NCBI GenBank assembly: GCA_016874735.1
Contig: VGTI01000039.1
Location: 1 to 36,921 of the forward strand
Direction of reading: 5' to 3'
From: Deltaproteobacteria bacterium
GTDB lineage: Bacteria; Bdellovibrionota_B; Oligoflexia; Oligoflexales; CAIYRB01
Length of the DNA: 36,921 nucleotides
Made by a program: the position numbers and the translations under genes
In this document: positions 3,423 through 33,989 of the stretch, in pieces
How the letters are laid out: the number at the start of each line of letters is the position of its first letter
Numbering within the stretch: the first letter of the stretch is position 1
Notes under the pieces: generated by a model
What the model saw: only the letters and a program-made list of their open reading frames with translations
Told to the model about the DNA's origin: nothing
Databases searched by the model: none

Positions 3423-4610
3423 ATGACCAAGACTCGTGTCGTGGCAGCAATGTCGGGAGGTGTGGACTCCTGTGTCGCGGCGGCTTTGCTACTTGAGCAG
3501 GGCTACGAGGTTATTGGTATTACGATGCAGCTGTGGAACCATGCTGGCGACGGCGAGGAGCGTTTTGATAGCTGCTGCTCGCTCACTGATGTCCACGACG
3601 CACGCATGGCGGCCCACCGCATGGGTGTCCCTCATTACGTCGTGAACTACGAGCGTGAGTTTAAAAAGGGCGTCGTCGATTATTTCGCGTCTGAATACGG
3701 CGCCGGGCGTACGCCTAATCCGTGCGTGATGTGCAACAGTAAACTCAAATTTGATCACTTAGTGGACCGTGCACGTGCGCTCGGTGCCGACTGGGTGGCG
3801 ACTGGGCACTATGCGCGGGTCGTGCACCATAGCGATGGACGCCCGAGTGAGCTCTATACAGGCCTTGATCCCAAGAAGGACCAAAGCTACTTCCTCTTCG
3901 ACATGCAGCCCGACAATCTCAAGCGGGCGATGTTTCCGCTTGGTGGTTTAACTAAACCTGAGGTGCGGGCGATCGCTGCACGTCTTGGACTCCATACGGC
4001 GGAAAAACACGAGAGCCAAGAGATCTGCTTTGTCACTGGGGGCCGCTACAGCGACTTTTTAGAAAAGCATTATCCCGACGTGGTGCGTGGACGCGGCGGT
4101 GAGATTGTCGATCGTGATGGTCTCGTTCTTGGGCGTCACGAGGGAATTCATCTCTTTACAGTCGGGCAACGCAAGGGACTTGGGGCTTTAGGTCCCGACC
4201 CCAAATATGTGGCTGCGATCGACGCAGAGCACAACCGTGTTGTCGTCGATGATCTCGAGAATCTTAAAGTCGAGGGCTTTGGCGTCGATCTCGTCAATTG
4301 GCTTGTACCGCGCGACGAGATCACGGCTGATCGGACCTTAAGTGTGATGGTGCGGTACCGGGCTAAGCCGGTCGCTTGTCGCGTGGTGCCAGATGCGGAT
4401 AAACCAGGGCGCTACCAGGTCCTGCTCGCCGAGAAGGCGCGCTGGGTGACTCCGGGGCAAGCGGCCGTATTTTATGACCAAGAGAGGGTAGTCGGTGGAG
4501 GGTTCATTGCCAACAACACAGCCTATAAGGCCACCGTGGCCGCGGCCAGCACGCCTGGAGGATTATCAACTCCTCGGGGCCCAACATCAGCCGATCTTCA
4601 CGCGACTTGA
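3423..4610 (+). CDS. mnmA: tRNA-specific 2-thiouridylase MnmA
   Basis: Puts sulfur on U34 of the Lys, Glu and Gln tRNAs with ATP and persulfide sulfur. Visible motifs are the PP-loop SGGVDS (residues 11-16), NPCVMCNSKLKF with catalytic Cys101, ATGHYAR (126-132), QSYFLF (154-159), SQEICF with the second catalytic Cys202, and TVGQRKGLG later. The conserved core ends at VVGGGFI. The last ~33 residues are a Thr/Pro/Ala-rich tail not usual in the family, and the rnc frame begins inside this tail. The start is the ATG at 3423 after GGGGGG-type Shine-Dalgarno bases. First gene of an mnmA-rnc-der operon. Confidence 0.96.
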   Translation: MTKTRVVAAMSGGVDSCVAAALLLEQGYEVIGITMQLWNHAGDGEERFDSCCSLTDVHDARMAAHRMGVPHYVVNYEREFKKGVVDYFASEYGAGRTPNPCVMCNSKLKFDHLVDRARALGADWVATGHYARVVHHSDGRPSELYTGLDPKKDQSYFLFDMQPDNLKRAMFPLGGLTKPEVRAIAARLGLHTAEKHESQEICFVTGGRYSDFLEKHYPDVVRGRGGEIVDRDGLVLGRHEGIHLFTVGQRKGLGALGPDPKYVAAIDAEHNRVVVDDLENLKVEGFGVDLVNWLVPRDEITADRTLSVMVRYRAKPVACRVVPDADKPGRYQVLLAEKARWVTPGQAAVFYDQERVVGGGFIANNTAYKATVAAASTPGGLSTPRGPTSADLHAT

Positions 4611-5361
4611 CGTGCTGCAGGAACGGGCCGGCCACCGCTTTGCCGACCTGACCCTGTTGTACGAGGCGCTGACGCATCGCTCGGCCTTGATGGAACTCAG
4701 TAGCGTTGTACCCCAGCGTGGTGCGACTGCTAGGAGAAAGTCCGCAGCCAGTGCGTCGCCAAGTTTACCTTGGAACGAGCGGCTTGAATTTCTTGGCGAC
4801 GCCGTTCTTGGTCTGGCCATCAGCCAGAGGCTCATGGAGAGTAGCGACAAGCTTGCAGAGGGTGATCTGTCCCGTCTGCGTGCCATGCTGGTGAACGAGG
4901 AAAACCTGGCTGACCAAGCACGTCAATTGCAACTCGGTAAGTTCCTCATTATGGGTAAGGGCACGGCTCAGACTGGTGGTCGTAATCGCGACTCACTCTT
5001 AGCTGATGCACTTGAAGCCCTAATCGGTGCGGTTTTTGTCGACGGTGGCTTCGCTGCTGCCGATGCTCTGATCGGGCGGATCTTCGCCGGTCAGCTCAAA
5101 GGTGATTTAGCTCAGTACAAAAGATCGGACTATAAGACGCAACTGCAGGAATTAACGCAGGCCCACAACAAACAGACACCTGTTTATGAGGTGGCGCAGG
5201 AATCCGGCCCCGATCATGCCAAGGTGTTTGAGGTGCGTTGCATTGTCTCCGGCCGTGAACTCGGTCGTGGCCGCGGCGCCAGTAAGAAACGAGCTTCGCA
5301 AGAAGCAGCCAAGTTAGCCATATCTTCATTTAAGCAGGTAGCGAAGGAGGGGCAGTTATGA
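4495..5361 (+). CDS. rnc: Ribonuclease III
   Basis: Double-strand-specific endoribonuclease for rRNA and mRNA processing. ALTHRS (58-63) and the signature NERLEFLGD (94-102) mark the catalytic domain, the second acidic site lies in LLADALEALIGAVFVDGG, and a C-terminal dsRNA-binding domain (about 213-285) carries DYKTQLQE and GASKKRASQEAA. ALTHRS and the signature are about 30 residues apart, while E. coli has about 9, so a Ser/Arg/Ala-rich insertion sits next to the active site. The start used is GTG 4495, with AGAGAGGG about seven bases upstream, giving 288 residues and a 116-base overlap with mnmA. A GTG at 4612, just after the mnmA stop, would also give a normal RNase III N-terminus but lacks a Shine-Dalgarno sequence. 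Confidence 0.94.
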   Translation: MEGSLPTTQPIRPPWPRPARLEDYQLLGAQHQPIFTRLDVLQERAGHRFADLTLLYEALTHRSALMELSSVVPQRGATARRKSAASASPSLPWNERLEFLGDAVLGLAISQRLMESSDKLAEGDLSRLRAMLVNEENLADQARQLQLGKFLIMGKGTAQTGGRNRDSLLADALEALIGAVFVDGGFAAADALIGRIFAGQLKGDLAQYKRSDYKTQLQELTQAHNKQTPVYEVAQESGPDHAKVFEVRCIVSGRELGRGRGASKKRASQEAAKLAISSFKQVAKEGQL

Positions 5362-6761
5362 TCAATGGTATCGTCGCCATAGTTGGTCGGCCCAATGTCG
5401 GTAAGTCAACTCTCTTTAACCGTCTCACCGTATCGGATGACGCTATCGTCGATGATCGGCCGGGCGTGACGCGCGATCGTCTCTATGGCCATGCTTGGCT
5501 TGATGCCGAGAAGACCAGTGGCTTTATGGTGATCGACACCGGCGGATTTGAGACGGATGACTTCAAGTTTCAGCCCTTTGCCGAAAACTTAGTGTGGCGC
5601 CAAACCGAGGCGGCTATCAAAGAATCGGATTTAGTCCTGTTGGTTTTAGACGGCAAATCAGGCATGAATCCGCATGACCGTCAGCTCAAGCGCTACTTGG
5701 AAGAGATAAAAAAACCACACGTGATCGCCGTCAACAAGGTTGACGGGCCCGAGCAGAGTCAGGTCATGTGGGAGTTCTTCGAGCTAGGTGTCGATGAGCT
5801 TATCAAGGTTAGTGCGGCGCACAATCGCGGCGTTGGTGATCTGAAGCAGCAGCTGGCTGACGAGCTCGAGACGCTACCGAGTCTGGCGCACGTTAAATCG
5901 GCCAGCGATGCTATCCGCATAGCCATCGTCGGGCGTCCGAATGCAGGTAAATCGTCGATACTTAATCGGATGATGGGCGAGGAGCGGGCCTTAGTCTCAG
6001 ACATTGCAGGCACGACTCGTGATTCGCTCGACACTCCGATGGTCTATAACAACCAGGCCTACGTCCTGATCGACACAGCGGGTATCAGGCGTAAATCCAA
6101 GATCAACGAGCGTCTGGAAAGCTTAAGTGTCATGCGGAGCCTTAGGGCGATTGAGCGCGCCGATGTAGTTCTGCTGGTGCTTGATGCCGTTCAGGGTCTG
6201 ACGGAGCAGGATGCGCGCCTGGCTGATCTCGCTGCAGATCGCGGTAAACCGGTCGGGATCGTCGTCAACAAGTGGGATATATTCCCCGATAAAGAATCGA
6301 ACACGGCCAAGGAGTATACGGCGGCCATTCATCGCGAGCTGAAGACGCTGTCGTATGCGCCTATTACCTTCGTGTCGGCCCTGACGAATCAGCGTGTCCA
6401 CCAGTTGATGTCTCTGGCCGAACGACTAGCACAGTCGGCAAAGAGCCGCGTCGATACCAGCGAGGTCAACCGGGTACTGCGGGCCATGGTCCAGGAGCAT
6501 ACTCCGGCACTGATCAAGGCTAAGTCGAAGCGGGTGAAGTTTTACTTTGCCACCCAGGTCGCCGTGTCGCCCCCAACGATCGTTGTTTTCTGCAACGTAT
6601 CCAATGAGATTCATGAAAGTTATGTGCGCTATATGACTAACAGGTTCAGGCGGGATTTGGGCTTTGCAGAAGTGCCGATCAGGCTTATATTCCGTCCCAA
6701 GAGCGATGTGCGCCAGCGCGATGCAGAGGCTGCTAGCGAGGCCAAGGAGTCCCTAGATTAG
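5358..6761 (+). CDS. der: Ribosome biogenesis GTPase Der (EngA)
   Basis: Essential GTPase of 50S subunit assembly with two tandem G domains. Domain 1 has GRPNVGKS (10-17), DRPGVTRD, DTGG and NKVD (126-129). Domain 2 has GRPNAGKS (192-199), AGTTRD, DTAGIRRK and NKWD (304-307). A KH-like C-terminal domain follows, ending FRRDLGFAEVPIRLIFRPK, the family's typical close. At 467 residues it has the usual length. The start codon overlaps the rnc stop in ATGA (5358-5361), preceded by GGAGGGG, indicating translational coupling. Last gene of the operon. Confidence 0.97.
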   Translation: MINGIVAIVGRPNVGKSTLFNRLTVSDDAIVDDRPGVTRDRLYGHAWLDAEKTSGFMVIDTGGFETDDFKFQPFAENLVWRQTEAAIKESDLVLLVLDGKSGMNPHDRQLKRYLEEIKKPHVIAVNKVDGPEQSQVMWEFFELGVDELIKVSAAHNRGVGDLKQQLADELETLPSLAHVKSASDAIRIAIVGRPNAGKSSILNRMMGEERALVSDIAGTTRDSLDTPMVYNNQAYVLIDTAGIRRKSKINERLESLSVMRSLRAIERADVVLLVLDAVQGLTEQDARLADLAADRGKPVGIVVNKWDIFPDKESNTAKEYTAAIHRELKTLSYAPITFVSALTNQRVHQLMSLAERLAQSAKSRVDTSEVNRVLRAMVQEHTPALIKAKSKRVKFYFATQVAVSPPTIVVFCNVSNEIHESYVRYMTNRFRRDLGFAEVPIRLIFRPKSDVRQRDAEAASEAKESLD

Positions 6762-6777
6762 GGCGCTGCGGTGGTGC

Positions 6778-6783
6778 TATAAT
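6778..6783 (+). promoter_or_regulatory. Candidate -10 box for the HiPIP gene
   Basis: A perfect TATAAT hexamer 17 bases after the der stop and 85 bases before the HiPIP ATG. The -35 region (AGATTA at 6755-6760, 17-base spacing) is weak. It probably starts a HiPIP-globin transcript. Confidence 0.45.
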
Positions 6784-6868
6784 TGGGGTGCCGGAAATGT
6801 CCCGCCCCCCCTTGCTCTTGCTACTACCCTAAACTCACGCAGACCCATCGGATCAAAGGAGCCCCATC

Positions 6869-7273
6869 ATGTCGGATCAGTCAGACTGTAAACAATTGAG
6901 TCGCCGTCAGGCTCTCCAAAAACTTGCTGCTGCAGTGCCGGTCACTGTCGTAGCTGCCAGTGCTGTGCGGGCGATGGCTGCAGAAGCCCCAGCGGCCAAG
7001 CCGGCGGCTGCACCAGCTGCTGCTGGCCCCGAGCTAAAATTAGTGCCCGACACGGATGCCACCGCAAAGGCGCTTAAGTACGTGCCGGACGCTACCAAAG
7101 CGACTCGCGTCGACAAGATGGGCGTCGCAGGTAAGGACCAAAACTGCAAGAACTGCCAGTTCTACACCAAGGCAGGTGAAGTTAAGGGGCAGGAAGTAGG
7201 CAAGTGCCTCATGCTTCCAGCTGGTATGGTGGCTTCCACTGGTTGGTGTATGTCGTGGACCAAGAAGGCCTGA
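6869..7273 (+). CDS. High-potential iron-sulfur protein (HiPIP)
   Basis: A 134-residue periplasmic electron carrier with a [4Fe-4S]3+/2+ cluster. The N-terminus has a Tat signal, SRRQALQKLAA (11-21), then a hydrophobic Ala/Val stretch and cleavage near AMAAEA (35-40), followed by an Ala/Pro linker. The mature part has the family pattern with cluster ligands Cys93, Cys96, Cys113 and Cys127, an ALKYVPDATK segment before them, and the closing GWCMSW. Tat export fits folding with the cluster already inserted. AAAGGAG precedes the ATG. Its 3' end overlaps the globin gene, suggesting co-expression of a redox carrier and a haem protein. Confidence 0.94.
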   Translation: MSDQSDCKQLSRRQALQKLAAAVPVTVVAASAVRAMAAEAPAAKPAAAPAAAGPELKLVPDTDATAKALKYVPDATKATRVDKMGVAGKDQNCKNCQFYTKAGEVKGQEVGKCLMLPAGMVASTGWCMSWTKKA

Positions 7274-7638
7274 GTACTGAGCCCTCTATCTACGAAGAGA
7301 TAGGTGCCGATCTCATACGCCGATGTTTGACCGTTTTTTACGAACGGGCATTCACCGACGGGGTGATCGGTCATTTCTTTTTTGGTAAAGACCGCGCGCA
7401 TATCACCGAGCAGCAGATCGATTTTGCCACAGCCATGCTCGGTGGTCCGCGCAAATACCGCGGTAAACCGTTGGCTGCGGCTCATGCCCATCTGGACATC
7501 AGACGACCGCATTTTATGCGGCGTCAAGTTTTGATGCGCGAGGTGTTGACGGAGATGGGGGTTCCGGAGCGCCAGCGCGATGCATGGCTGGCACTTGAGG
7601 AGGCGCTGCGTCCCGTCGTCACGCGGCCGACTAGGTAA
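7255..7638 (+). CDS. Truncated haemoglobin-like protein
   Basis: About 127 residues, cytoplasmic. It matches the 2-over-2 globin pattern: FYERAFTDGVIGHFF (B-E region, with Tyr29 at the usual B10 place), LGGPRKYRGKPL, then AHAHLDIRRPHF, in which His77 is at the expected proximal (F8) position. Likely to bind O2 or NO at haem. The start is uncertain. The frame is open from GTG 7204, but the globin fold begins after 7255, so GTG 7255 is chosen, giving a 19-base overlap with the HiPIP gene. No good Shine-Dalgarno sequence precedes either start, so translation is probably coupled to HiPIP. Subgroup uncertain, nearest to group I by the F-helix pattern. Confidence 0.82.
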   Translation: MDQEGLSTEPSIYEEIGADLIRRCLTVFYERAFTDGVIGHFFFGKDRAHITEQQIDFATAMLGGPRKYRGKPLAAAHAHLDIRRPHFMRRQVLMREVLTEMGVPERQRDAWLALEEALRPVVTRPTR

Positions 7639-7642
7639 GGAA

Positions 7643-8488
7643 TCACCCTAGTAGGCTCAGCATCGGCAACGCGGGATCCCGCTGCAGCCAAATCCCATCA
7701 CGCCGTGGCAGGTCGCCCTCGCTGACATGGAGCGTATAGGCGTGACGCGAACGCGACGACGTATTCTTGTGACTCATATGCGGTGCAAGCGCATGCAGGA
7801 GTATAACGCTGCCCTTGGGCACCTCCAAGGGCACGGTGGCATCCAGGTTCCACGGGGTGGCGTCGTGAGTCTCAAAATTTGTTGTTTCGTCTGGTAAACG
7901 AGTCATTGTTTGTCGGCGTCCCGCCTTATGAGCGCCAGGGATAGCCCATAGGCAACCGTTTTCCTCTGTAGCATCTTCAAGCGCAAACCAAAGACCAATC
8001 AAACTGCTCGGCTCGGTGTCGAGAAACGTACTATCTTGGTGGCACGTCACTTCGCCGCCGATATGCGGTTGTTTGAATATGTACATAGACTGCATGATGC
8101 GTGGGTCACGAAATTTACCTAGGCTAGTCACAATGCTGCGAATCTCAGGCAGCAATGAGAATTCGCGGAACACCGGGTCGAGATCAGCCAAGGCGTGGCC
8201 GATCTTATTGATGGCTAGGTGCTTGTCGCGCGTCAACGTGCCGTCGGCGCTGAGGGCGTCTTCTTCAAAAAAGAAGCGGATCTTATCCCCCGACTCCAGG
8301 AAGTAATGATTGCGGACATGACTGTTGCGATCGGTCGCGAAGATGACCTTGAGATCACCTGGCTCAAAGGCGTCGACCAGCTCATCGGCGCGACCGCGGA
8401 GTGCGTCGCAGGTGTGAGATGGAATGACACCGGGGAGGACTAAAAAGCCATCACGGTCAAACTGGCTGATATCACGGGTAGTTAGCAA
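7643..8488 (-). CDS. Phytanoyl-CoA dioxygenase (PhyH) family protein
   Basis: Predicted Fe(II)/2-oxoglutarate oxygenase of 281 residues, the usual PhyH length. The iron triad is visible as His150-Gln-Asp152 (CHQDSTF) and the distal His237 in HMSHKNTS, with the Arg-rich SSRSRHAY after it as the 2-oxoglutarate anchor. ENGCLWAIPGAH (177-187) is the typical PhyH segment. The start is TTG at 8488, nine bases after AAAAGGAG. No ATG in frame lies near the N-terminus. Convergent with the globin gene (four bases apart). The substrate is unknown: family members hydroxylate acyl-CoAs and many small metabolites. Confidence 0.9.
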   Translation of the reverse strand: MLTTRDISQFDRDGFLVLPGVIPSHTCDALRGRADELVDAFEPGDLKVIFATDRNSHVRNHYFLESGDKIRFFFEEDALSADGTLTRDKHLAINKIGHALADLDPVFREFSLLPEIRSIVTSLGKFRDPRIMQSMYIFKQPHIGGEVTCHQDSTFLDTEPSSLIGLWFALEDATEENGCLWAIPGAHKAGRRQTMTRLPDETTNFETHDATPWNLDATVPLEVPKGSVILLHALAPHMSHKNTSSRSRHAYTLHVSEGDLPRRDGIWLQRDPALPMLSLLG

Positions 8489-23410: not shown

Positions 23411-24694
23411 ATGTCCGGTCTTAAACAGTCACGCCGCCTCAATGTTCGCGATTGGTCCCTGATAGTCTTGGGTCTGGCTGGCATGGTGGCGTGTGGCGAG
23501 GGCCCCATGACCTTTAAGCGTGTGGAACAAGAGACTGCGGATAGTGCGACGCGTGGCGAGGCACTGCAAGCCACTACCCACGACACGGCTAAGGCACCCG
23601 GTGGCGCTGAAAAAGATGATAGCGGCGATGCGCGCAAAGGAAACGGTCCGCGGCAGGGTTCCGGTAGTAGGGACATCCCCGACACCGCGGGCCCGGAGGG
23701 ACCTCGTGATCCTAGTGCGGTACCTGGTCTTGATACCTTGAGCATACAGTGGCGTCTACCGTGTCAGCATACCGCCTTAGACTCAGGGGCCATAGTTGGT
23801 GGCGGGCGGCATGCGGTTACTTTGGGTCAGGCATCGAAGCTCGCGGTAACCTTCAGTGGCACCGTCTGTGAACCTGCTCCGACGCCGCGCGAGATTGTGC
23901 TGGTGGTTGACGTAACGGGATCCATGGGTCCAGGAACGGGCGATGGATTCAACCACGATCCGATGCGCAATGGTTCTTGCGGACGCATGGAGGCCGTGCG
24001 CCACGTTCTCGCCAAATTGCCCGCCGATGGCTCAGCGCGCGTCAGCTTGATTACCTTTAATTCCAGAGTCACTGCCAAGTCGAGCGAGTTCCATACGAAT
24101 GGGGCAACTCTATTTGCTGATTTGGAATCATCGACGCGTCGCCCGATTGCCAACGTCCTTTGTGCTGCAGACGGTGAGACAGATTACGCTGCTGCTTTGT
24201 CTACTGCAGGTAAGATGCTCGATAAGTTTGGACGGACGCATGTGCAACGAGAAATCTACTTTGTCACTGACGGTATCCCTACGGTTCGTGATGGAGTCCG
24301 CGAGGCATGGGCACTCAAGGCTGACGGTGTTATGATCGCACCGATTATGCTGATAGGTGATGAATCTATCCTGCGTGACAAGATAGCTAGCCGCGATTCT
24401 TCCGGACAGCCCTTTTTCCGCAAGGTTGCTGAAGCGAATGAACTGCCGCGAGCACTGGCGGATCTTGCAGTAAGTAAGCTGGTAAGCGTCCAGTTGAAGT
24501 ACCGCGCTGTTGGCAAGTCAAACTGGGAGTCTGTTAACCTTGTAAGTAAGCTTCAGGGCTATAGCTTTGGTCTGGCGCCACTGCAGTTTGACATGACCCT
24601 TGGGGACGGCTTCGAGATGCGTCTAGAAACCCTGGACAACCGAGGGCGCAAGACGGAAGTGGAAGGTGTGTTGATGGCGAGTCCCAATCCTTAG
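23411..24694 (+). CDS. vWA-domain lipoprotein
   Basis: 427 residues. The lipoprotein signal ends at Cys28 (GMVACGEG). A Gly/Asp/Lys-rich disordered linker (about 40-105) follows, then a von Willebrand factor A domain from about 160 to 350: MIDAS Asp167-Val-Thr169-Gly-Ser171 (VVDVTGSMG), ETDYAAAL and FVTDGIPT. The usual DxSxS has Thr in the second place. A beta-rich tail ends the protein. GGAGG precedes the ATG. Likely a surface or periplasmic metal-dependent binding protein. Its stop overlaps that of the NTF2-like gene by four bases. Confidence 0.87.
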   Translation: MSGLKQSRRLNVRDWSLIVLGLAGMVACGEGPMTFKRVEQETADSATRGEALQATTHDTAKAPGGAEKDDSGDARKGNGPRQGSGSRDIPDTAGPEGPRDPSAVPGLDTLSIQWRLPCQHTALDSGAIVGGGRHAVTLGQASKLAVTFSGTVCEPAPTPREIVLVVDVTGSMGPGTGDGFNHDPMRNGSCGRMEAVRHVLAKLPADGSARVSLITFNSRVTAKSSEFHTNGATLFADLESSTRRPIANVLCAADGETDYAAALSTAGKMLDKFGRTHVQREIYFVTDGIPTVRDGVREAWALKADGVMIAPIMLIGDESILRDKIASRDSSGQPFFRKVAEANELPRALADLAVSKLVSVQLKYRAVGKSNWESVNLVSKLQGYSFGLAPLQFDMTLGDGFEMRLETLDNRGRKTEVEGVLMASPNP

Positions 24695-25191
24695 GATTCG
24701 TGATCACCTAAACGAGCCTTAACCTTACGCGTGAGCCATCCCACGACTGGGACGTGCTCATAGACCATTTCACCTAGGTCAAAGTAATCACGGTGGTAGA
24801 CCACCAAGTCACCGCGGTAACGAAACTGCGACACACCTTTAACCGTAACGGTCTCGCCGTCTTCAAGTTTGGGCGTGTTGAGATACATCGTCCAGGAGGC
24901 GAAGCCCTCGTCGCCCTGGCGTACCTGGGTCGCCAATTCAAAACGGATCTTGCTCACACCCTCATACATATGGCGGTAGTAGCTGAGGAGCTTATCCCGA
25001 CCCTCAAGATGCGTGACTGGATCCTCAAAGACGCAGTCCGACGCGTAGAATTTCTCTACCATCTCTTTCATATTGGCGAGAGATGTTTGGTTGTAAAAAT
25101 CGGCCACACTGAGCTGCTGAGCCACTGCAGGCGGCATTGCGGTGGTCACGTATAACAGCGCTGTGAGTGCCACAGATCTTCTGTTTATCAC
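24691..25191 (-). CDS. Secreted NTF2-like (SnoaL-fold) protein
   Basis: 166 residues. A signal peptide (MINRRSVALTALLYVTTAMPPAVAQ) precedes an NTF2-like domain: VEKFYASDCVFEDPVTHLEGRDKLLSYYRHMY, then FRYRGDLVVYHRDYFDLGEMVYE. The closing YFDLGEMVYEHVPVVGWLTRKVKARL is the pattern seen in proteins encoded with DUF1295/lipid-modifying genes. The start is GTG 25191 after AAGGAG, six bases behind the DUF1295 gene, so co-transcribed with it. Binding partner or substrate unknown. Confidence 0.85.
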   Translation of the reverse strand: MINRRSVALTALLYVTTAMPPAVAQQLSVADFYNQTSLANMKEMVEKFYASDCVFEDPVTHLEGRDKLLSYYRHMYEGVSKIRFELATQVRQGDEGFASWTMYLNTPKLEDGETVTVKGVSQFRYRGDLVVYHRDYFDLGEMVYEHVPVVGWLTRKVKARLGDHES

Positions 25192-25197
25192 TTCTCG

Positions 25198-25995
25198 TTA
25201 CTCCTTAGCTGAGCGGCGTGGTAATAGTCGCGGCCAAAACGGTGGTACCTCAGCCACGTAGGCTGCGTATCCAGGCTTACGCCTCACAAGATCGGCTTCA
25301 AGCAACGTCACACCTGAGACACGCCGCAGTAGGAATGTCATCAATGCTGGACCGACTAAGGTCCAGTAACCACCGGGGCAGGAAAGGCTGATGATACCGA
25401 AGCCCCACCACAGTAGGCTGTCGCCAAAATAATTGGGGTGGCGCGTCAGACCCCAAAGGCCACTGCGGAGCACCTGGCCACGGTTTTGCGGATTAGCCTT
25501 AAAGGTCTTGAGCTGGGCATCGCCGATGACCTCAAATCCAAGACCCAAAGCGAATACGGCGAACCCTATGATATCAAATACGGTGGGAAAGGCGTCTCCG
25601 CCGCCGCCGGCAATCACCGCTAGAGGGGTCGAGACTATCAGGAGTATCGTTGCTTGGAGGAGGTTGACGCGGAGGAAACTCTTCCAAACAAAACTGGGCC
25701 CAATTTTGTTACGCATGGCCGTGTAGCGTGGGTCCTCGCCCTGGCCACTATTACGGCGATGGAGATACCAAGATAGACGTATCCCCCAGAGGGCGACGCA
25801 GGCCAAGGTCAGGCCACTTCTAGGGTCGAGCTCTCCTGCTTGCCAGCAGTACCCTGCCATGGCTAACACAAATCCTAGACCCCACACCCGGTCGACGAAG
25901 CTGACATCATGGTGGCGGACCCCTAGGTACCAAATCACCACCATCATCAGGCCCACTGCGCCTGCGCCGGGCAATATGAGTGTCCATAGACTCAT
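25198..25995 (-). CDS. DUF1295 family integral membrane protein (steroid 5-alpha-reductase-like)
   Basis: 265 residues with about six or seven hydrophobic segments. The C-terminal catalytic-type motifs are GLTRHPNYFGDSLLWWG and EADLVRRKPGYAAYVAEVPPFWPRLLPR, typical of DUF1295 and related to the isoprenylcysteine methyltransferase/5-alpha-reductase group, which binds SAM or NADPH. VSFVDRVWG near the start is family-typical. ATG 25995 with GGGAG. Forms a two-gene unit with the NTF2-like gene and diverges from the acyltransferase by about 60 bases. Confidence 0.9.
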   Translation of the reverse strand: MSLWTLILPGAGAVGLMMVVIWYLGVRHHDVSFVDRVWGLGFVLAMAGYCWQAGELDPRSGLTLACVALWGIRLSWYLHRRNSGQGEDPRYTAMRNKIGPSFVWKSFLRVNLLQATILLIVSTPLAVIAGGGGDAFPTVFDIIGFAVFALGLGFEVIGDAQLKTFKANPQNRGQVLRSGLWGLTRHPNYFGDSLLWWGFGIISLSCPGGYWTLVGPALMTFLLRRVSGVTLLEADLVRRKPGYAAYVAEVPPFWPRLLPRRSAKE

Positions 25996-26056
25996 AGGGC
26001 TAAACTCCCGTTTAGTGACCGATCCATCTCAAGTACTATGGTGCGGGAATCGGGTC

Positions 26057-26770
26057 ATGTCCAGATCGAATCGGGTCTGGATCGCTTCATTGGTGGTGGG
26101 TATGAGCTTCATCCGTTTTCTTGTGCTCATGAAGATTAAGATGATTAGTCTTCTGTACTTTCGCTTCGACGTCGCCTGGTTTGGTCCTAAGCCGGAGCGT
26201 CGTAACTGGAGCGATATTAGGCTTGCTGTGATTTTGAATCATACGAGCCTCCTTGAGCCCATATTTGCGGCAGTTTTACCGGTCGGATTTCTATGGCGTA
26301 TTGCCAGTCGCGGTATGTTTCCTGCCGCCGATCTGACTATGAATCGTCCTATAGCGGGCAGATTATTTCGCATTCTGGCACCCCAGGTAATCGCGCTCAC
26401 ACGTAAACGCGATGAGAGCTGGCAGCAGTTTCTGGACCAGATTGATCCAAATGCCGTCATGCTCTTTCTCCCTGAGGGCCGAATGAAGCGTCCTAACGGG
26501 CTGGACAAGCACGGTAAACCCATGACAGTGCGGGGCGGTATCGTCGACGTTCTGCAGCTTCTCGGTCACGGCAAGATGCTTATCGCGGTCAGCGGTGGGC
26601 TCCATCACTTACGCTTCAGAAAGCGCCTGCAGCTTAGGCTGACTACCGTAGACATAGCTGAATACTTAAAGCAGTTCACCAGAGATGGTCAGCTTGATGG
26701 TAAGGCCATCATCAGCGATCTCGAGCAGATCCGTGACGAGCACAGTGTGCTGGCCAATAAAGCGCCGTGA
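26057..26770 (+). CDS. PlsC-like acyltransferase
   Basis: About 237 residues. LAVILNHTSLLEP supplies the acyltransferase block 1 with His and an acidic residue in HX4E spacing (PlsC has HX4D). VMLFLPEGRMKRPNG is block 3 (FPEG-like). VRGGIVDVLQLLGHGKMLIAVSGG follows in place of the usual block 4. A hydrophobic N-terminal segment (VWIASLVVGMSFIRFLVLM) may anchor it to the inner membrane. The start ATG 26057 is the first in a sensible context. The frame reaches back to 25859 inside the opposite DUF1295 gene. Its last codons lie in the left 41-base direct repeat. Confidence 0.82.
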   Translation: MSRSNRVWIASLVVGMSFIRFLVLMKIKMISLLYFRFDVAWFGPKPERRNWSDIRLAVILNHTSLLEPIFAAVLPVGFLWRIASRGMFPAADLTMNRPIAGRLFRILAPQVIALTRKRDESWQQFLDQIDPNAVMLFLPEGRMKRPNGLDKHGKPMTVRGGIVDVLQLLGHGKMLIAVSGGLHHLRFRKRLQLRLTTVDIAEYLKQFTRDGQLDGKAIISDLEQIRDEHSVLANKAP

Positions 26771-26774
26771 CGGT
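26734..26774 (+). repeat. Left copy of 41-bp imperfect direct repeat
   Basis: TGACGAGCACAGTGTG and the following 25 bases match 29821-29861 at 34 of 41 positions with no gap (the first 16 bases are identical). It spans the last codons and stop of the acyltransferase gene. Together with the right copy it flanks a 3.1-kb block holding a hypothetical gene, prs-like and nadV. Confidence 0.75.
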
Positions 26775-26802
26775 CTGGCGCTGGTATCAAAATGATTATT
26801 TA

Positions 26803-26840
26803 CCCCTGCCGGTAGTACAGGTTTGAAACCGCCGGCGGGG
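26803..26840 (+). terminator. GC-rich hairpin after the acyltransferase gene
   Basis: CCCC-T-GCCGG pairs with CCGGC-GGGG (one bulged T), about 30 bases behind the stop of the acyltransferase. No T-run follows, so intrinsic termination is doubtful. Confidence 0.3.
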
Positions 26841-26981
26841 TAGGCTAGGTTTCGCGGCGATTGAAGATAACGCACCGTAATAAATAGACTAATTGGGCTC
26901 CCTGAAGAAATGGCACGCAACTTGCTGTACGGGTTTTATCAACGATGCCTTTTCGGCTCTCCTGTGTGGTTAGGATGAGAT

Positions 26982-27506
26982 ATGAGACGCCCGAGTTTGA
27001 ACAAGTTTGCCGCTACCTTAAAAAATCCCGTTTACCTCCTTAGGGCCCCAATCTCGCGGCTACTTTTTGTACTAGCCCTGACGCAAATGTCTTACGCCTC
27101 GGCTGTAAAGAAGATCCACGAACTAGGTGGCTACCTTACTTCCCTAAAAAGCTACTTGAGTGGTCTCGGTGAGCAAGGCGAGCCTTCTAACCTCGATGAT
27201 CTCAGCAAATTTTTTGCTGAAGGACCGAGTCGATGCCGGTTTCCAAAGTATCGTCTGCCGGCTCCGACGCTCCCACTCCGTTTTGTCTTGGCCCCCTTAA
27301 AAGAAGCGGCAGAAGCTTTGACTGCGGCCGCACTTGAATCAGATGATTTACAAACAACCCGATCTGACTCGTTTGTGGCGGTCGTATCAATACACAGAAT
27401 CATTAAAGCCAAGATTATTAATGTATCTCGTCGCAAACATATAATTCCGGTCAGTGTCACCGCTAATCTTGTGAGTTTAAATGGCAAGAGGCTAGCCACA
27501 GCGTGA
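26982..27506 (+). CDS. Hypothetical protein, possibly a degraded fragment
   Basis: 174 residues, AGGATGAG before the ATG. The N-terminus has a hydrophobic segment (ISRLLFVLALTQMSYASA) that could be a signal peptide. The part LDDLSKFFAEGPSRCRFPKYRLPAP loosely recalls the start of DUF4105-type periplasmic proteins, while the C-terminal part (after about residue 95) is unlike them. It could be a frameshifted remnant or simply a local protein. No family is claimed. It lies between the left direct repeat and the prs-nadV pair. Confidence 0.45.
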   Translation: MRRPSLNKFAATLKNPVYLLRAPISRLLFVLALTQMSYASAVKKIHELGGYLTSLKSYLSGLGEQGEPSNLDDLSKFFAEGPSRCRFPKYRLPAPTLPLRFVLAPLKEAAEALTAAALESDDLQTTRSDSFVAVVSIHRIIKAKIINVSRRKHIIPVSVTANLVSLNGKRLATA

Positions 27507-27553
27507 CCTTTGTATTGCCTCTGAACGTACCGATCTAGGCGAGGGCTTTGTCG

Positions 27554-28333
27554 ATGCTCAAACTATTTAGCAAAAGCCAGGAAATCACATTTAAAACGAC
27601 GATCTTCCCAGACAAAACCAGCCAAGTCTGGCAGGTAGATGACACTCACGGCAATGATCTTTCAAATCTGCGCGTACTTTGGCTGTTTGAGGGTGAGCAT
27701 GAGCTTGCGCAGCTCTTGCAGCTTGTCTACCTTTTGCGGTCTCTCTACGGATCCCGCATTGAACTGCATGCGCCTTATTTACCCTACGCTCGCCAGGATA
27801 AGCCCGTAAGCAACAGCAGTACTTGGGCAGTTCATCTGCTAGATAAATTGATCCGTGAGGCTGGTATTGAAAAGGTGAGAGTCTTTGACCAACACTCGCA
27901 GTGCTTTTTTGAATCCGAGTCAGCTGAGTCCTTTCACAAATCGGTCATTAACCATGACCTAATTTGCTTCCCAGATAAGGGTGCGTGGCAACGCTATAAT
28001 CACCTGCATGTGTCAGCATATGGATCACGTTATGTTTGGTGTGAGAAGGTGAGAGATCAACTGACTGGTGCGATCACTGCTCATACTCTCCATACGATGG
28101 GGCATCAAATAAAGGGTGCACGTATTTGCATCGTCGATGACCTATGCGACGGCGGCAGAACCTTTGTCGAGGTGGCTGCCAAACTGCGTGCTGAGCAGGT
28201 CGCGGCAGTTGATCTGGTGGTGTCCCATGGCCTGTTTTCATTGGGTAAAGATGTCCTACACAACGCTGGAATAGACACCATCTACACGACAAACTCACTG
28301 TTGCACAACCGAGACGGATTCAAAGTCTGGTGA
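27554..28333 (+). CDS. Ribose-phosphate pyrophosphokinase-like protein (PRPP synthetase)
   Basis: 259 residues, shorter than housekeeping Prs (about 315). It keeps LHAPYLPYARQDKPVS (pyrophosphokinase segment) and the PRPP-binding loop CIVDDLCDGGRTF, and replaces conserved stretches elsewhere, as in the Prs variants paired with NAMPT in bacteria and phages. The likely job is to supply PRPP from ribose 5-phosphate and ATP to the next enzyme. ATG 27554 is chosen over TTG 27548 because GAGGG lies at the right distance. The stop is 11 bases before nadV. Confidence 0.85.
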   Translation: MLKLFSKSQEITFKTTIFPDKTSQVWQVDDTHGNDLSNLRVLWLFEGEHELAQLLQLVYLLRSLYGSRIELHAPYLPYARQDKPVSNSSTWAVHLLDKLIREAGIEKVRVFDQHSQCFFESESAESFHKSVINHDLICFPDKGAWQRYNHLHVSAYGSRYVWCEKVRDQLTGAITAHTLHTMGHQIKGARICIVDDLCDGGRTFVEVAAKLRAEQVAAVDLVVSHGLFSLGKDVLHNAGIDTIYTTNSLLHNRDGFKVW

Positions 28334-28344
28334 ACGGAGATTCT

Positions 28345-29817
28345 ATGAACGCCCAATTGAGTGCCTTGTTACTTTGCGACTTCTACAAAATTAGTCATCG
28401 CGAGCAATACCCGGAGGGAACTGAAACTGTCTACTCGACGTGGACACCACGAGAGTCTCGTATCAAATCGATTGACCACGTCGTCAGCTTTGGTCTGCAG
28501 GGTTTTATCAAGGAGTATCTCGTTGATTTCTTCAACGAGCATTTTTTTCGCCTCCCTATGGCAGATGTGGTTAGGGACTACGCTCGGGTTATTAAATACA
28601 CCCTTGGGCATGAGAGGCCGTACACGCAGCATATCGAGGACCTACATGATCTAGGCTATTTGCCGCTTGAAATTAAGTCGGTTGCTGAGGGGACCTTGGT
28701 TCCGATTCGAGTGCCCATGCTGACGATCAGAAACACGGATCCACGATTTTTTTGGCTGACAAACTACATTGAGACCTTGGCATCTTGCGAGCTGTGGCAG
28801 GCGTGCACTAGCGCTACGCTAGCCTTTCAATACCGTAAGATTCTAACCAAGTACGCTGAGGAAACTGGCGGCAATCTGGACCTAGTGAGTTTTCAGGGTC
28901 ATGATTTTTCTATGCGGGGTATGAGTAGTCTGCACAGCTCGATGCTAAGTGGCGTCGGTCATTTACTTTCGTTTGTTGGTACTGACACGATTCCGGCAAT
29001 TTACCGCGCCGAAAAATACTACAACGCCAACATTGAAACTGACCTAGTTGGCACCTCCATTCCGGCGACGGAGCATAGCGTGATGTGTGCCAACGGTCGC
29101 AGCGAAGAGGAGGTCTTCAGGAGGCTTTTAACCAAAGTATATCCAACCGGCTTTGTATCGATAGTATCCGATACATGGGATTTCTGGAACATTGTGAGTG
29201 TCGTGTTGCCGAAGATCAAAGATTTGGTGATGGCTCGCAACGGCAAAATGGTGATCAGGCCCGACAGTGGGGACCCGGTTAAAATCATTTGTGGCGACCC
29301 TGAAGCAGCTGATGAGCACGCCTGCAAGGGTCTGGTCGAGTGCCTGTGGGATATATTCGGCGGCACTTACAACACCAAAGGTTACCGTGAACTCGATCCG
29401 CATGTAGGCGCCATATATGGCGATTCTATTAATTTGGAGCGATGCGAACGTATCAGCCAACTACTCAAAGATAAGGGATTCGCCTCGACCAATATGGTTT
29501 ATGGCATTGGCTCGCTGACCTATCAGCTCAACACCAGGGATACGTTTGGGTTTGCGCTTAAGTCCACTGCTTGTGTTGTTGATGGTACTGAGTATCAACT
29601 CTTTAAGGCACCAAAGACCGATAACGGTGTCAAGACGTCGCAAAGAGGTTGTGTCGCCGTGATCGACGACGGTCAAAGGCTAGTCTGCAAAGAAGGCCTA
29701 AACTTAGACGATCAAGTGACTGGTGACCTGCTTAGGCCTGTCTTTAGGGACGGTACCCTGCTCGTCGACGAGCATCTGAATACTATTAGGCGGCGACTGA
29801 TGGACCGGCTTACGTGA
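28345..29817 (+). CDS. nadV: Nicotinamide phosphoribosyltransferase (NAMPT)
   Basis: 490 residues, matching eukaryotic and bacterial NAMPT length. Makes NMN from nicotinamide and PRPP for NAD salvage. Visible motifs are DFYKISHREQYP, FQGHDFSMRGMSSLHSS, GTSIPATEHSVMCANG (NAMPT ATEHS motif), RPDSGDP (phosphate binding), YGDSINLERC, and GIGSLTYQLNTRDTFGFALKST. The start is ATG 28345, six bases after GGAG. GTG 28330 is an unlikely earlier start. Encoded directly behind the PRPP synthetase-like gene, so the pair makes and uses PRPP. The right direct repeat begins three bases after the stop. Confidence 0.93.
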   Translation: MNAQLSALLLCDFYKISHREQYPEGTETVYSTWTPRESRIKSIDHVVSFGLQGFIKEYLVDFFNEHFFRLPMADVVRDYARVIKYTLGHERPYTQHIEDLHDLGYLPLEIKSVAEGTLVPIRVPMLTIRNTDPRFFWLTNYIETLASCELWQACTSATLAFQYRKILTKYAEETGGNLDLVSFQGHDFSMRGMSSLHSSMLSGVGHLLSFVGTDTIPAIYRAEKYYNANIETDLVGTSIPATEHSVMCANGRSEEEVFRRLLTKVYPTGFVSIVSDTWDFWNIVSVVLPKIKDLVMARNGKMVIRPDSGDPVKIICGDPEAADEHACKGLVECLWDIFGGTYNTKGYRELDPHVGAIYGDSINLERCERISQLLKDKGFASTNMVYGIGSLTYQLNTRDTFGFALKSTACVVDGTEYQLFKAPKTDNGVKTSQRGCVAVIDDGQRLVCKEGLNLDDQVTGDLLRPVFRDGTLLVDEHLNTIRRRLMDRLT

Positions 29818-29820
29818 ACC

Positions 29821-29861
29821 TGACGAGCACAGTGTGATCACTGATAAAACGCCATGACGGT
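29821..29861 (+). repeat. Right copy of 41-bp imperfect direct repeat
   Basis: The same 41-base unit as at 26734-26774 (34 of 41 identical, same orientation), starting three bases behind the nadV stop. It also covers the last codons and stop of the convergent surface protein gene. The start-to-start distance is 3087 bases. Confidence 0.75.
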
Positions 29862-32800
29862 GAGGGTGCGGCCGCCGATTGGAGTTGCAGGTGATCCGCT
29901 GGTCCAACCTGGAGAGCTGTACCACATTACACCACAAGAGGCACACCACCAGTATATGTCGGCGGTATGTGCACCTGCGCTTAGATTGGCAACGGCAGAA
30001 CCAGATAATTGGATGTTACAATCACCGCTGCAATATGGATGAAAGTGAGAGCCGGATCCCTGATAGTAAACACCGTCGATATTGATGATGGTACTTACAT
30101 AGTCTGCACCAGGATTACTGCCCGGGGATGCGTTCATTGAATAGTGAGCGTATATTGTGGCAGGGCGATCGAGTGTAAAAGATACCGTTGAATCAGGCAC
30201 TTTGGTGACCGCCGCAGTTTGAATTGTGATGTTAGTGGTCGGCGCAGATTGCCACATCCCAGCCAATACCCCACCACCCTTAATCGTGCCGTTAACGTCG
30301 AGCTTGGCAGCCGGTGTCGATGAACCAATGCCGACATTGCCGGTGGTTGTTAAAGTTCCTGTGATAGCAATGTTGTCGTTGATGCCGACCGATCCACCGC
30401 TGGTGGCGGCGCTAAAGTCCTTGACCCAAGATGCGTAGACTTTAGTGCCAGCCTTGATCAGAGTGACTAGAGTATCGCTTCCTGGAGTCACAACCACGGG
30501 GCACGCGGGATTGCAGTAGAAGGTAAGGCCAGTGCTTGCGAAAGTGTAGTTACCGCCGGTAGCGTTGGTGAGTGCTAGCGTGTAGTTGGCGCCGTCCACC
30601 ATGGAATTGGCGACAAAAGTGATGGCACCGGCGGCAGCATTCGTCGATTGGATGTTGCCGCCTTTCCAGTCGATCGTGGTGGTAGTGCCCGCTACATAGG
30701 TACCAATGATCGGTCCGCCGCTTACTGTAAGGGATCCCGTCATCGTATCACCGGTTTTATTCACTTTGGTCGTGTCGATTGTGGATGCGATAGTCACAAC
30801 TCCGGCAGAGTTGGTGACGTTTATCCCGGTACCTGCCGTGATCGTGCCGAGCGCATAGCCGCTTCCGTTGCCTATGAGTATTTGACCGTTCGTGGGTGTC
30901 GTCGATACACCGGTACCACCGTTAGCGACGCCAATGACGCCTGAGCCGATAGAGCTTGCTGGCAAAGACGGAATATCAGCAGCCGTTAGTGGTAGCCCTG
31001 CGGTGATACGGCCTTTGGTGTCAGTCACAACTTTGGCATAAGTCCCGGCTGTGACACCTGTCGCAGCAAGAGTAGGGTTTGGAAAGTTTCCAACCAAATC
31101 ACCTCCGGCGCTGCCAGTGGGAGCGGCACCAGATACCCAAGACATGACGCCACTGCCGTTGGTGGAAAGCAATTGACCGTTGGTGCCATCGGTAGATGGC
31201 AGTGTCCAAGTGGTCGATGCACCGAGGGTGTCAGGCGATTTTAGAGCGACGAAGTTAGCACTACCGCGGTCATTCAAGACGAGTTTATTAGCTGTGGTAC
31301 TGTTACCCACCACCGTGATGTTGCCTTTAACCGTTGCAGCAGAGGTTGTGACCGTACCAGTGGTATCAATAGACGCTGTACCAGTGATTAGTGAGGCCCC
31401 GCTAATTGTACCTGCATTAATAACGGGACTTGTCAGCGTCTTGTTGGTTAGCGTCTCTCCGGCAGTCTCAGTAACGACTACACCCGATGTCGGGAATGTG
31501 GCCGTGGAACTCACCCCCGTACCACCGTTAGTCGTCGCGAGTAATCCTGTGACGGCAGCGGATTGCGCTAAGTTGAGAGCAGCAAAACTGGGTACACCGC
31601 CACCTGCAGGCACGGAGAGGATTTGGTAAGCATTACCAGCCGCGGTGCTGATGAGATTGCCGGTGCCGTTCCCGAGCATCACCCCGTTACTGGTAAACGT
31701 TGTGGCACCTGTGCCGCCTTTATCGACACCAAAAACACCGGAGCCGATAATGCTGGCTGGTAGTGTGGGCACGTCGGCCACGGCCAATGGTAGCCCCGCG
31801 GTGATGCGGCCTTTGGTGTCGGTCACTACTTTGGCATAAGTCCCAGCTGTGACACCTGTCGCAGCAAGAGTGGGGTTAGGAAAGTTTCCAACCAAATCGC
31901 CACCCGCAGCACCAGTAGGTGCTAAACCCGATGTCCACCCGAGGCCTCCGCTACCGTTAGTCATGAGCACTTGTCCTGATGTGCCGTCGGTGGACGGAAG
32001 TGTCCACACTGTGGACGCGGACAAGGTGTCGGCTGCTTTAAGGGCGACAAAGTTTGTGGTGCCTTTATCGTTTAATAAAATCTTGTTTGCTAAAGTACCG
32101 TCGCCCTGAACAGTCAGATTACCGCGGACTGTGTTAGCACTTGAGGTGACTGTGCCAGCGGTATCAATGGACGTTGCGCCTGTGATGAGCGAATTGCCGC
32201 TGATCGTCCCCGCGTTAACAACGGGACTAGTCAGCGTCTTATTAGTAAGCGTTTCAGCTGCGGTCTGAGTCACGATCACGCCGGATGTGGGGAATGTGGC
32301 CGTGGAATTAACTCCCGTACCACCGTTAGTCGTCGCCAGTAGTCCTGTGACGGCCGCGGATTGCGCTAAGTTGAGAGCAGCAAAACTGGGTATACCGCCA
32401 CCTGCAGGTACGGAGAGGATTTGGTAGGCGTTGCCGGCAGCAGTGCTAATGAGATTGCCGTTGCCATTGCCGAGCATCACCCCGTTACTGGTAAACGTTG
32501 TGGCACCTGTGCCGCCTTTATCGACACCAAAAACACCAGAGCCGATGATACTAGCTGGTAGTGTGGGCACGTCGGCCACGGCCAATGGTAGCCCCGCGGT
32601 GATACGACCTTTGGTGTCGGTCACAACTTTGGCATAAGTCCCAGCTGTGACACCTGTCGCAGCAAGAGTGGGGTTAGGAAAGTTTCCAACCAAATCGCCA
32701 CCCGCAGCACCGGTCGGCGCTAGGCCGGACGTCCAGCCGAGTGCACCACTACCATCGGTAGATAGCACTTGGCCGGCACTACCATCAGCGGGTGGTAAGG

Positions 32801-33989
32801 TCCAGACGACTGAGCTGCTCAAAGTGTCGGCAGATTTCAGGGCGACGAAATTTGCGGTTCCTTTATCGCCTAAAACTAACCGACTTGCGTTTGTGCCGTT
32901 GCCGTTTAGCGTGAGGTTGCCCCCAAGCGTGGCAGACGCAGCACCGATGCTTCCGGTAGTGGTGATGTTTGTGGCACCAGTGATAAGCGAATGTCCAGCA
33001 ACCGTGCCCGATGTGATGATCGCTGCTGTGAGACTTGCTGCCGTTAGGCTCTTGTTGGTGAGTGTCTGACTGGCATCCTCGGTTACGATCACGCCAGAGG
33101 TTGGGAACGTGGCTGTCGAGTTCACCCCGGTACCGCCGTTGGCCCTACCTAATAAACCAGTCCCAATCTTTGCAGCATCGAGCGTTGGGATATCAGCAGC
33201 AGTTAGTGTCGCGCCCGCAGTTATTTGGCCGTACCGATTGGTTGTAACTTTCGTATAGGTTCCAGAAGTCCCAATTTCAGCGAGAGAGATGGTCGAGGTC
33301 CCCCCGGCGTTAGTGACGACGACGCCTTCACCTGCACCGAATCCAGCAACACCCGGAGACGCGGCAACCCACTTCGCTCCGTCGAATGTCAGCACTTGCC
33401 CCAAACTTGCGGGTGCACCACTAGCTGCATCAGCACTCAGAGTAGCCAGCGAGGGACTGGCCCAACTGAACTGACCGTTTGCACCGCGCGTAAGGAACTG
33501 GTTGGGCCCAGCGTTGCTCTTTAGAGCGAGTCCTAACTGTCCGTTAGCGTCAAATGATAGCGAATTGTCTGTAGGCACGCGCAGGGCAAAAGGCACCAAG
33601 TGAAATTCTTGCCGCGGATAGGTCTTACCAGCTGCGCTCACTTCAACGAATACTGGCTCACTGCCGTTACCGAAGACAGCAGTAATCTCTGCTGGGCTGA
33701 GCTCTAACGCTACTGTAAACACACCCTGATTTAGCTTAACAGCACTCAAAATCAGATTGGGGCCTAGTCGGGTTCCGTTAGTTCCTGCGGACCAGAAGCT
33801 CACGCTCAAGTCCACCGGGCCAACGAGCGGTGCGCCGCTCTCATTGGTCAGCCGCCCAGAGTAACTCAGAGGTAAAACCTCGGCGGCACGAGCCATGGGA
33901 GCAAGGCTGGCCAGGAGGCAAAAGACCAGTGCGTGCAGCAGGTTGCGCCGCATCGACTGGAATTTTCCTGTGGTACCAGCAAGTTGCAT
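29838..33989 (-). CDS. Large secreted surface protein with tail-fibre-like tandem repeats
   Basis: 1383 residues. A hydrophobic signal (LLHALVFCLLASLAPMARAAE, about 17-37) follows a short N-terminal tail. Then comes a beta-sandwich-like domain (GRLTNESGAPLVGPVDLSVSFW, about 42-135), then repeats of an about 266-residue module (SGLAPTGAAGGDLVGNFPNP.., with YAKVVTDTKGRITAG and GGTG turns). The C-terminal part has GNVGIGSSTPAAKLDVNGTIK, as in tail-fibre and adhesin shafts, and a Cys-containing end domain. GAGGAGG precedes ATG 33989. Probably an extracellular fibre or adhesin. No phage genes are nearby. Confidence 0.87.
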   Translation of the reverse strand: MQLAGTTGKFQSMRRNLLHALVFCLLASLAPMARAAEVLPLSYSGRLTNESGAPLVGPVDLSVSFWSAGTNGTRLGPNLILSAVKLNQGVFTVALELSPAEITAVFGNGSEPVFVEVSAAGKTYPRQEFHLVPFALRVPTDNSLSFDANGQLGLALKSNAGPNQFLTRGANGQFSWASPSLATLSADAASGAPASLGQVLTFDGAKWVAASPGVAGFGAGEGVVVTNAGGTSTISLAEIGTSGTYTKVTTNRYGQITAGATLTAADIPTLDAAKIGTGLLGRANGGTGVNSTATFPTSGVIVTEDASQTLTNKSLTAASLTAAIITSGTVAGHSLITGATNITTTGSIGAASATLGGNLTLNGNGTNASRLVLGDKGTANFVALKSADTLSSSVVWTLPPADGSAGQVLSTDGSGALGWTSGLAPTGAAGGDLVGNFPNPTLAATGVTAGTYAKVVTDTKGRITAGLPLAVADVPTLPASIIGSGVFGVDKGGTGATTFTSNGVMLGNGNGNLISTAAGNAYQILSVPAGGGIPSFAALNLAQSAAVTGLLATTNGGTGVNSTATFPTSGVIVTQTAAETLTNKTLTSPVVNAGTISGNSLITGATSIDTAGTVTSSANTVRGNLTVQGDGTLANKILLNDKGTTNFVALKAADTLSASTVWTLPSTDGTSGQVLMTNGSGGLGWTSGLAPTGAAGGDLVGNFPNPTLAATGVTAGTYAKVVTDTKGRITAGLPLAVADVPTLPASIIGSGVFGVDKGGTGATTFTSNGVMLGNGTGNLISTAAGNAYQILSVPAGGGVPSFAALNLAQSAAVTGLLATTNGGTGVSSTATFPTSGVVVTETAGETLTNKTLTSPVINAGTISGASLITGTASIDTTGTVTTSAATVKGNITVVGNSTTANKLVLNDRGSANFVALKSPDTLGASTTWTLPSTDGTNGQLLSTNGSGVMSWVSGAAPTGSAGGDLVGNFPNPTLAATGVTAGTYAKVVTDTKGRITAGLPLTAADIPSLPASSIGSGVIGVANGGTGVSTTPTNGQILIGNGSGYALGTITAGTGINVTNSAGVVTIASTIDTTKVNKTGDTMTGSLTVSGGPIIGTYVAGTTTTIDWKGGNIQSTNAAAGAITFVANSMVDGANYTLALTNATGGNYTFASTGLTFYCNPACPVVVTPGSDTLVTLIKAGTKVYASWVKDFSAATSGGSVGINDNIAITGTLTTTGNVGIGSSTPAAKLDVNGTIKGGGVLAGMWQSAPTTNITIQTAAVTKVPDSTVSFTLDRPATIYAHYSMNASPGSNPGADYVSTIINIDGVYYQGSGSHFHPYCSGDCNIQLSGSAVANLSAGAHTADIYWWCASCGVMWYSSPGWTSGSPATPIGGRTLTVMAFYQ
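31134..32729 (-). repeat. Two tandem 798-bp repeat units (266 residues each)
   Basis: Units run 32729-31932 and 31931-31134 in the reading direction. The same point of the sequence recurs at 32729, 31931 and 31133, exactly 798 apart. A partial unit lies before them (about 33145-32730) and another after (31133 to about 30895). Some 90-base blocks, for example 31822-31913 and 32620-32711, differ at only about one position, indicating recent duplication or gene conversion. Confidence 0.85.

Follow-up and report, generated by a model that had tools for sequence, protein, structure and literature searches.

A block of about 3 kb holding a hypothetical gene, a phage-type PRPP synthetase gene (prs-like) and the nicotinamide phosphoribosyltransferase gene nadV lies between two direct repeats in a Deltaproteobacteria bacterium (CAIYRB01; assembly GCA_016874735.1, 4.65 Mb), and its acquisition from elsewhere is well supported, the mechanism being what we infer. 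The window, that is the whole stretch of DNA analysed, comprises positions 1 to 36,921 of contig VGTI01000039.1. Probably, though far from certainly, an acyltransferase gene received the module at its 3′ end, through Campbell-type and perhaps site-specific recombination within a 16-bp core that both repeat copies share. The features on which this reading is built are as follows.

26102..26770, + strand: acyltransferase gene (222 aa), the putative target gene; weak match to Pfam Acyltransferase, E 0.0057, below the cut-off
26734..26774, + strand: repeat copy 1 (candidate attL), the acyltransferase 3′ end, reading DEHSVLANKAP-stop plus CGGT
26734..26749, + strand: 16-bp core of copy 1, TGACGAGCACAGTGTG, identical in copy 2
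26982..27506, + strand: hypothetical gene (174 aa), not phage-like, with one homologue found, in the congener G002
27554..28333, + strand: phage-type PRPP synthetase gene, prs-like (259 aa); phrog_619, E 4.1e-51
28345..29817, + strand: nadV, nicotinamide phosphoribosyltransferase gene (490 aa), phage type, intact; phrog_448, E 4.8e-201
29821..29861, + strand: repeat copy 2 (candidate attR), an apparent alternative acyltransferase tail, reading DEHSVITDKTP-stop plus CGGT
29821..29836, + strand: 16-bp core in copy 2
29838..33989, − strand: convergent surface-protein gene, ending inside copy 2 immediately to the right of the core

The repeat pair and the two apparent acyltransferase tails

The sequence-only reading had described two copies in the same orientation, 34 of 41 bases identical without gaps, the leading 16 bases perfect and the spacing 3087 bp, and all of these values and coordinates were reproduced exactly. 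Its placement of the copies, one at the end of the acyltransferase gene and the other behind nadV at the end of the surface-protein gene, was borne out with small corrections: copy 1 lies within the acyltransferase reading frame and comprises its last 11 codons, the stop and four further bases, and copy 2 begins three bases past the nadV stop and overlaps the final seven codons and stop (29838-29840) of the convergent gene. The suspicion that part of the match could be chance did not hold. With +1/−1.5 scoring, the pair reached 23.5 across the 5.4 kb of 24601-30000, far above the mean of 12.5 (SD 1.15, maximum 16.5) of 100 dinucleotide shuffles. Supportively, an 81-base query around copy 1 recovered copy 2 from the whole 4.65-Mb assembly at E 2.6e-5, the next-best match having E 0.007. 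The search for further copies that had been proposed along with the repeat located the 16-mer core, one mismatch being allowed, at these two sites only, so that a dispersed repeat was ruled out; the pair is the only one of its kind in the assembly.

Several other resemblances were considered and set aside. A candidate third copy at G000:C13:57793 encodes a similar peptide within an unrelated kinase-like gene and was taken as chance, and a 14-mer in G003:C122 lies in a transposase-like frame beside a reverse-transcriptase-like frame, with no acyltransferase, and was judged unrelated. The tail pattern had no match in the viral contigs searched, and no repeat near this score was found at acyltransferase 3′ ends in other genera, most of which offered 1-3 kb of downstream sequence. 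A 13-bp palindrome, AGCACAGTGTGCT, at 26739-26751 begins within the core of copy 1; copy 2 retains only its inner 9 bases.

Copy 2 can be read as a second version of the acyltransferase tail. It encodes DEHSVITDKTP-stop in the same frame as the DEHSVLANKAP-stop of copy 1, and several acyltransferase relatives from other genera (38-51% identity) end in R-D-x-H-C/Y or similar, matching the RDEHS found here. The similarity begins abruptly at the core, stopping at once upstream of it, and the seven differences are all found in the final 25 bases; identity there is 72%, close to the 73% at the nucleotide level between the locus and the congener G004. On sequence comparison, the tails thus appear to differ like genes from two species, whereas their 16-bp core shows no difference. 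Four of the differences are at codon position 1, three at position 3 and none at position 2; the lack of second-position changes has a probability of ~0.06 under equal rates, so the codon pattern is weak alone, and the conserved frame is in part a consequence of the ungapped identity itself. A simple transposon target-site duplication is unlikely, because the 7/41 differences follow a codon-like pattern, none of them lying before the final 25 bases, and a transposase was not detected. Rather than a freshly duplicated target site, copy 2 appears to be a displaced allele of the acyltransferase tail, and its identity as an in-frame alternative to that tail makes the recombination footprint more specific. 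The simplest picture would be one species' gene tail beside the displaced tail of another, with an exchange in or next to the core.

Contents and origin of the cassette

The content claimed for the block was likewise confirmed, the hypothetical, prs-like and nadV genes all lying between the copies. The prs-like protein carries the motifs PYARQDK and VDDLCDGGRT; it matched TIGR01251 at E 6.2e-25, below that model's cut-off, and solved PRPP synthetases weakly, at E 1e-13. NadV matched solved nicotinamide phosphoribosyltransferases over its length (PDB 9w5x, 715 bits), with its motifs GHDFSMRG, SIPATEHS and RPDSGDP aligning with that structure. The predicted roles are that Prs makes PRPP and that NadV joins PRPP and nicotinamide to give NMN. 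The G+C content of the cassette is 0.49 vs 0.53 for the window, and codon fit is low for all three cassette genes, as it also is for some resident genes. Searches of the block returned no adenylyltransferase, no tRNA or Rfam features were found, and consensus promoters were no more frequent than chance.

A full-length match to phrog_448, together with a place inside the phage (viral) clade of a maximum-likelihood tree, assigns NadV to the phage type; the viral comparison set was drawn from viral contigs, and cellular members of the clade are therefore under-sampled in it. Three chromosomal NadVs from the same order, 38-39% identical, formed a separate group in the tree, and the best 80 viral relatives (IMG/VR) were 45-67% identical. 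Of the 80 viral loci sampled, 77 had a detected prs relative close to nadV, mostly directly upstream, as here. A NadV relative was present in 1932 of 50,697 phage records, and plasmid relatives reached 59% identity. A nadV universally present at this locus was the case that the sequence-only reading had named as contrary to a gain, and a gene of this type is absent from all five congeners. Among the viral genes, four (L119, L136, L137 and L138) have a NadV match that is split in two by roughly 230-290 bases, which may be an intron or an inserted domain. In the bin of a genome from the same order, a contig of 7.9 kb (L145, G040:C514) carries genes of phage tail type next to a 60% NadV; it resembles either a phage contig from that lineage or a contaminant introduced by binning.

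Searches with the hypothetical protein against Pfam, PHROGs and phage and viral sequences came back empty. A single homologue was found, encoded in G002:C206 (42% identity, E 4.6e-16), at an unrelated chromosomal locus (L169, 9996-10421) whose neighbours are of housekeeping type, an endonuclease III-like and a Maf-like gene. As the only homologue lies in a congener, the evidence points to a donor from within this lineage and away from direct capture from a phage.

Proposed route of insertion and competing explanations

Direct repeats bound the block and one copy completes the target gene, as in elements integrated at gene 3′ ends. All three block genes are non-recombinase, the block showed neither an integrase or transposase gene nor a tRNA, and no recombinase was recognised among the window proteins tested; a tyrosine recombinase search gave seven matches elsewhere in the genome and none on this contig. 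The block follows an e14-like layout yet lacks one defining feature, an integrase gene of its own. Of the earlier proposal, the gained module with a recombination footprint stood, given the unique paired repeat, the phage-type prs-nadV absent from five congeners and the lower G+C; its attachment-site part is no more than a candidate, as the integrase is absent from the block and homologous or illegitimate recombination fits too.

In the favoured reading, the acquired DNA would extend from 26734 to about 29837 and would have entered at the acyltransferase 3′ end through a single crossover, in or beside the 16-bp core, between the resident gene and a circular donor (or its equivalent) bearing a copy of the gene's tail. 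The resident acyltransferase would have retained its body and gained the incoming tail (copy 1, LANKAP), and its original tail (copy 2, ITDKTP) would have been displaced beyond nadV, still overlapping the end of the convergent surface gene. The cargo would be the phage-type nicotinamide-salvage pair Prs and NadV, accompanied by the hypothetical gene. Here we infer the direction of insertion, the circular intermediate, which tail is original and a site-specific recombinase, and likewise the enzyme activities. The right junction is placed at or left of 29837 because the surface gene end lies just right of the core, and both flanking genes are unbroken. The surface-protein gene is a member of a repetitive family, matched dozens of times at the DNA level in this genome and in congeners, and the last ~110 residues of its product appear unique; a search of relatives for this C-terminus, made to establish the native end, gave no usable homologue. 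The route may have been a recombinase acting in trans, a since-lost integrase, or RecA-type or illegitimate recombination with donor DNA. The fully specified version, in which an integrase-less 3.1-kb circle carrying the phage NAD-salvage cargo was inserted at the acyltransferase 3′ end via the 16-bp core by a trans-acting recombinase and supplied the new tail, is offered as a tentative and rather doubtful proposal.

Among the five congeners, an acyltransferase orthologue was found in G004 only (82% identity). Its contig, G004:C150, ends at acyltransferase residue 207-208, ~10 bp short of the repeat, and no empty site was found; the missing end is on no other contig, and a contig scan for the acyltransferase gave no additional close relative. 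G004 carries a pair of SnoaL-like and DUF1295 genes twice, at L060 (G004:C246) 3746-5908 and L021 (G004:C150) 6408-7672, and only one of the pairs adjoins an acyltransferase.

Four other explanations were weighed against the favoured one. A linear fragment (acyltransferase-hypothetical-prs-nadV) from a related bacterium, brought in by homologous or homology-facilitated illegitimate recombination without an integrase, with the left exchange in the shared acyltransferase gene and the right join at the short core, has an appreciable but minor chance of being correct. The block without a recombinase, the tails diverging at congener level and the congener homologue of the hypothetical gene, which makes a same-lineage donor plausible, all fit it, but the right junction coincides with the beginning of the repeated tail, three bases past the nadV stop and with its neighbours intact, a precision seldom expected of a random illegitimate join. 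It is unlikely that copy 2 is what remains of a second acyltransferase gene, produced by duplication, that lost its body through deletion or replacement on the arrival of prs-nadV. The doubled SnoaL-like and DUF1295 genes indicate that this neighbourhood does duplicate, but no acyltransferase body was traced upstream of copy 2, the second G004 pair has no acyltransferase, and the tails share a perfect 16-bp block followed by merely 72% identity. A remnant of a prophage or larger element, with the acyltransferase gene as attB and all but the useful NAD genes later lost, is very unlikely. It would account for prs-nadV occurring mainly in large phages here and for the integrase, which would have gone with the lost parts; phage structural, replication and integrase pieces are nevertheless all absent, no other recognisable phage gene was found in the block, and the hypothetical gene has no viral relative yet has a congener homologue. 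Hardly credible is a chance match, or a short motif common to both places for unrelated reasons: elsewhere in the genome, 29 bp that match the core region at 86% lie within a gene encoding a similar QIRDEHTFLADL stretch, which indicates that such peptides can recur, but the shuffles never came near the observed score, copy 2 has its E of 2.6e-5 genome-wide, and the copies flank a foreign-looking module at a distance of just 3 kb.

Relation to known systems and biological meaning

There is precedent for elements that insert at the 3′ end of a gene and replace its tail. The Escherichia coli element e14, integrated in icd, supplies the terminal codons of the gene and leaves homologous attL and attR (PMC6379469). 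The present locus resembles e14/icd in that the insertion is at the 3′ end of a protein gene, a replacement tail is provided, the original tail is moved to the other end and the gene stays open (PMC6379469); it differs in having a repeat of 41 bp vs about 163 bp in e14, and an insert of 3 kb without an integrase. With phage NAD+ salvage (NadV with NadM/NadR; NARP2-type counter-defence) it shares a phage-type NadV and a nearby phage-type Prs, whereas the pair here lies in a bacterial contig, in a block with neither phage genes nor an adenylyltransferase. The Haemophilus ducreyi plasmid NC_005329 is a further case of a bacterial nadV on mobile DNA, its product matching at near full length with 52% identity; there the gene is on a 5.6-kb plasmid, and here it is in an insertion in a chromosomal contig.

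Phage NAD salvage has been proposed as a counter to NAD+-depleting defences (PMC9503650). For this bacterium the benefit may be nicotinamide salvage, or protection against NAD loss. If the favoured reading is true, the locus would be a small, clear case of a little-studied bacterial lineage harbouring Prs and NadV, a metabolic or counter-defence module of phages, and its footprint would tell how the module arrived. If the cassette is mobile without an integrase of its own, it would add to the few trans-mobilised mini-elements that spare their target gene.
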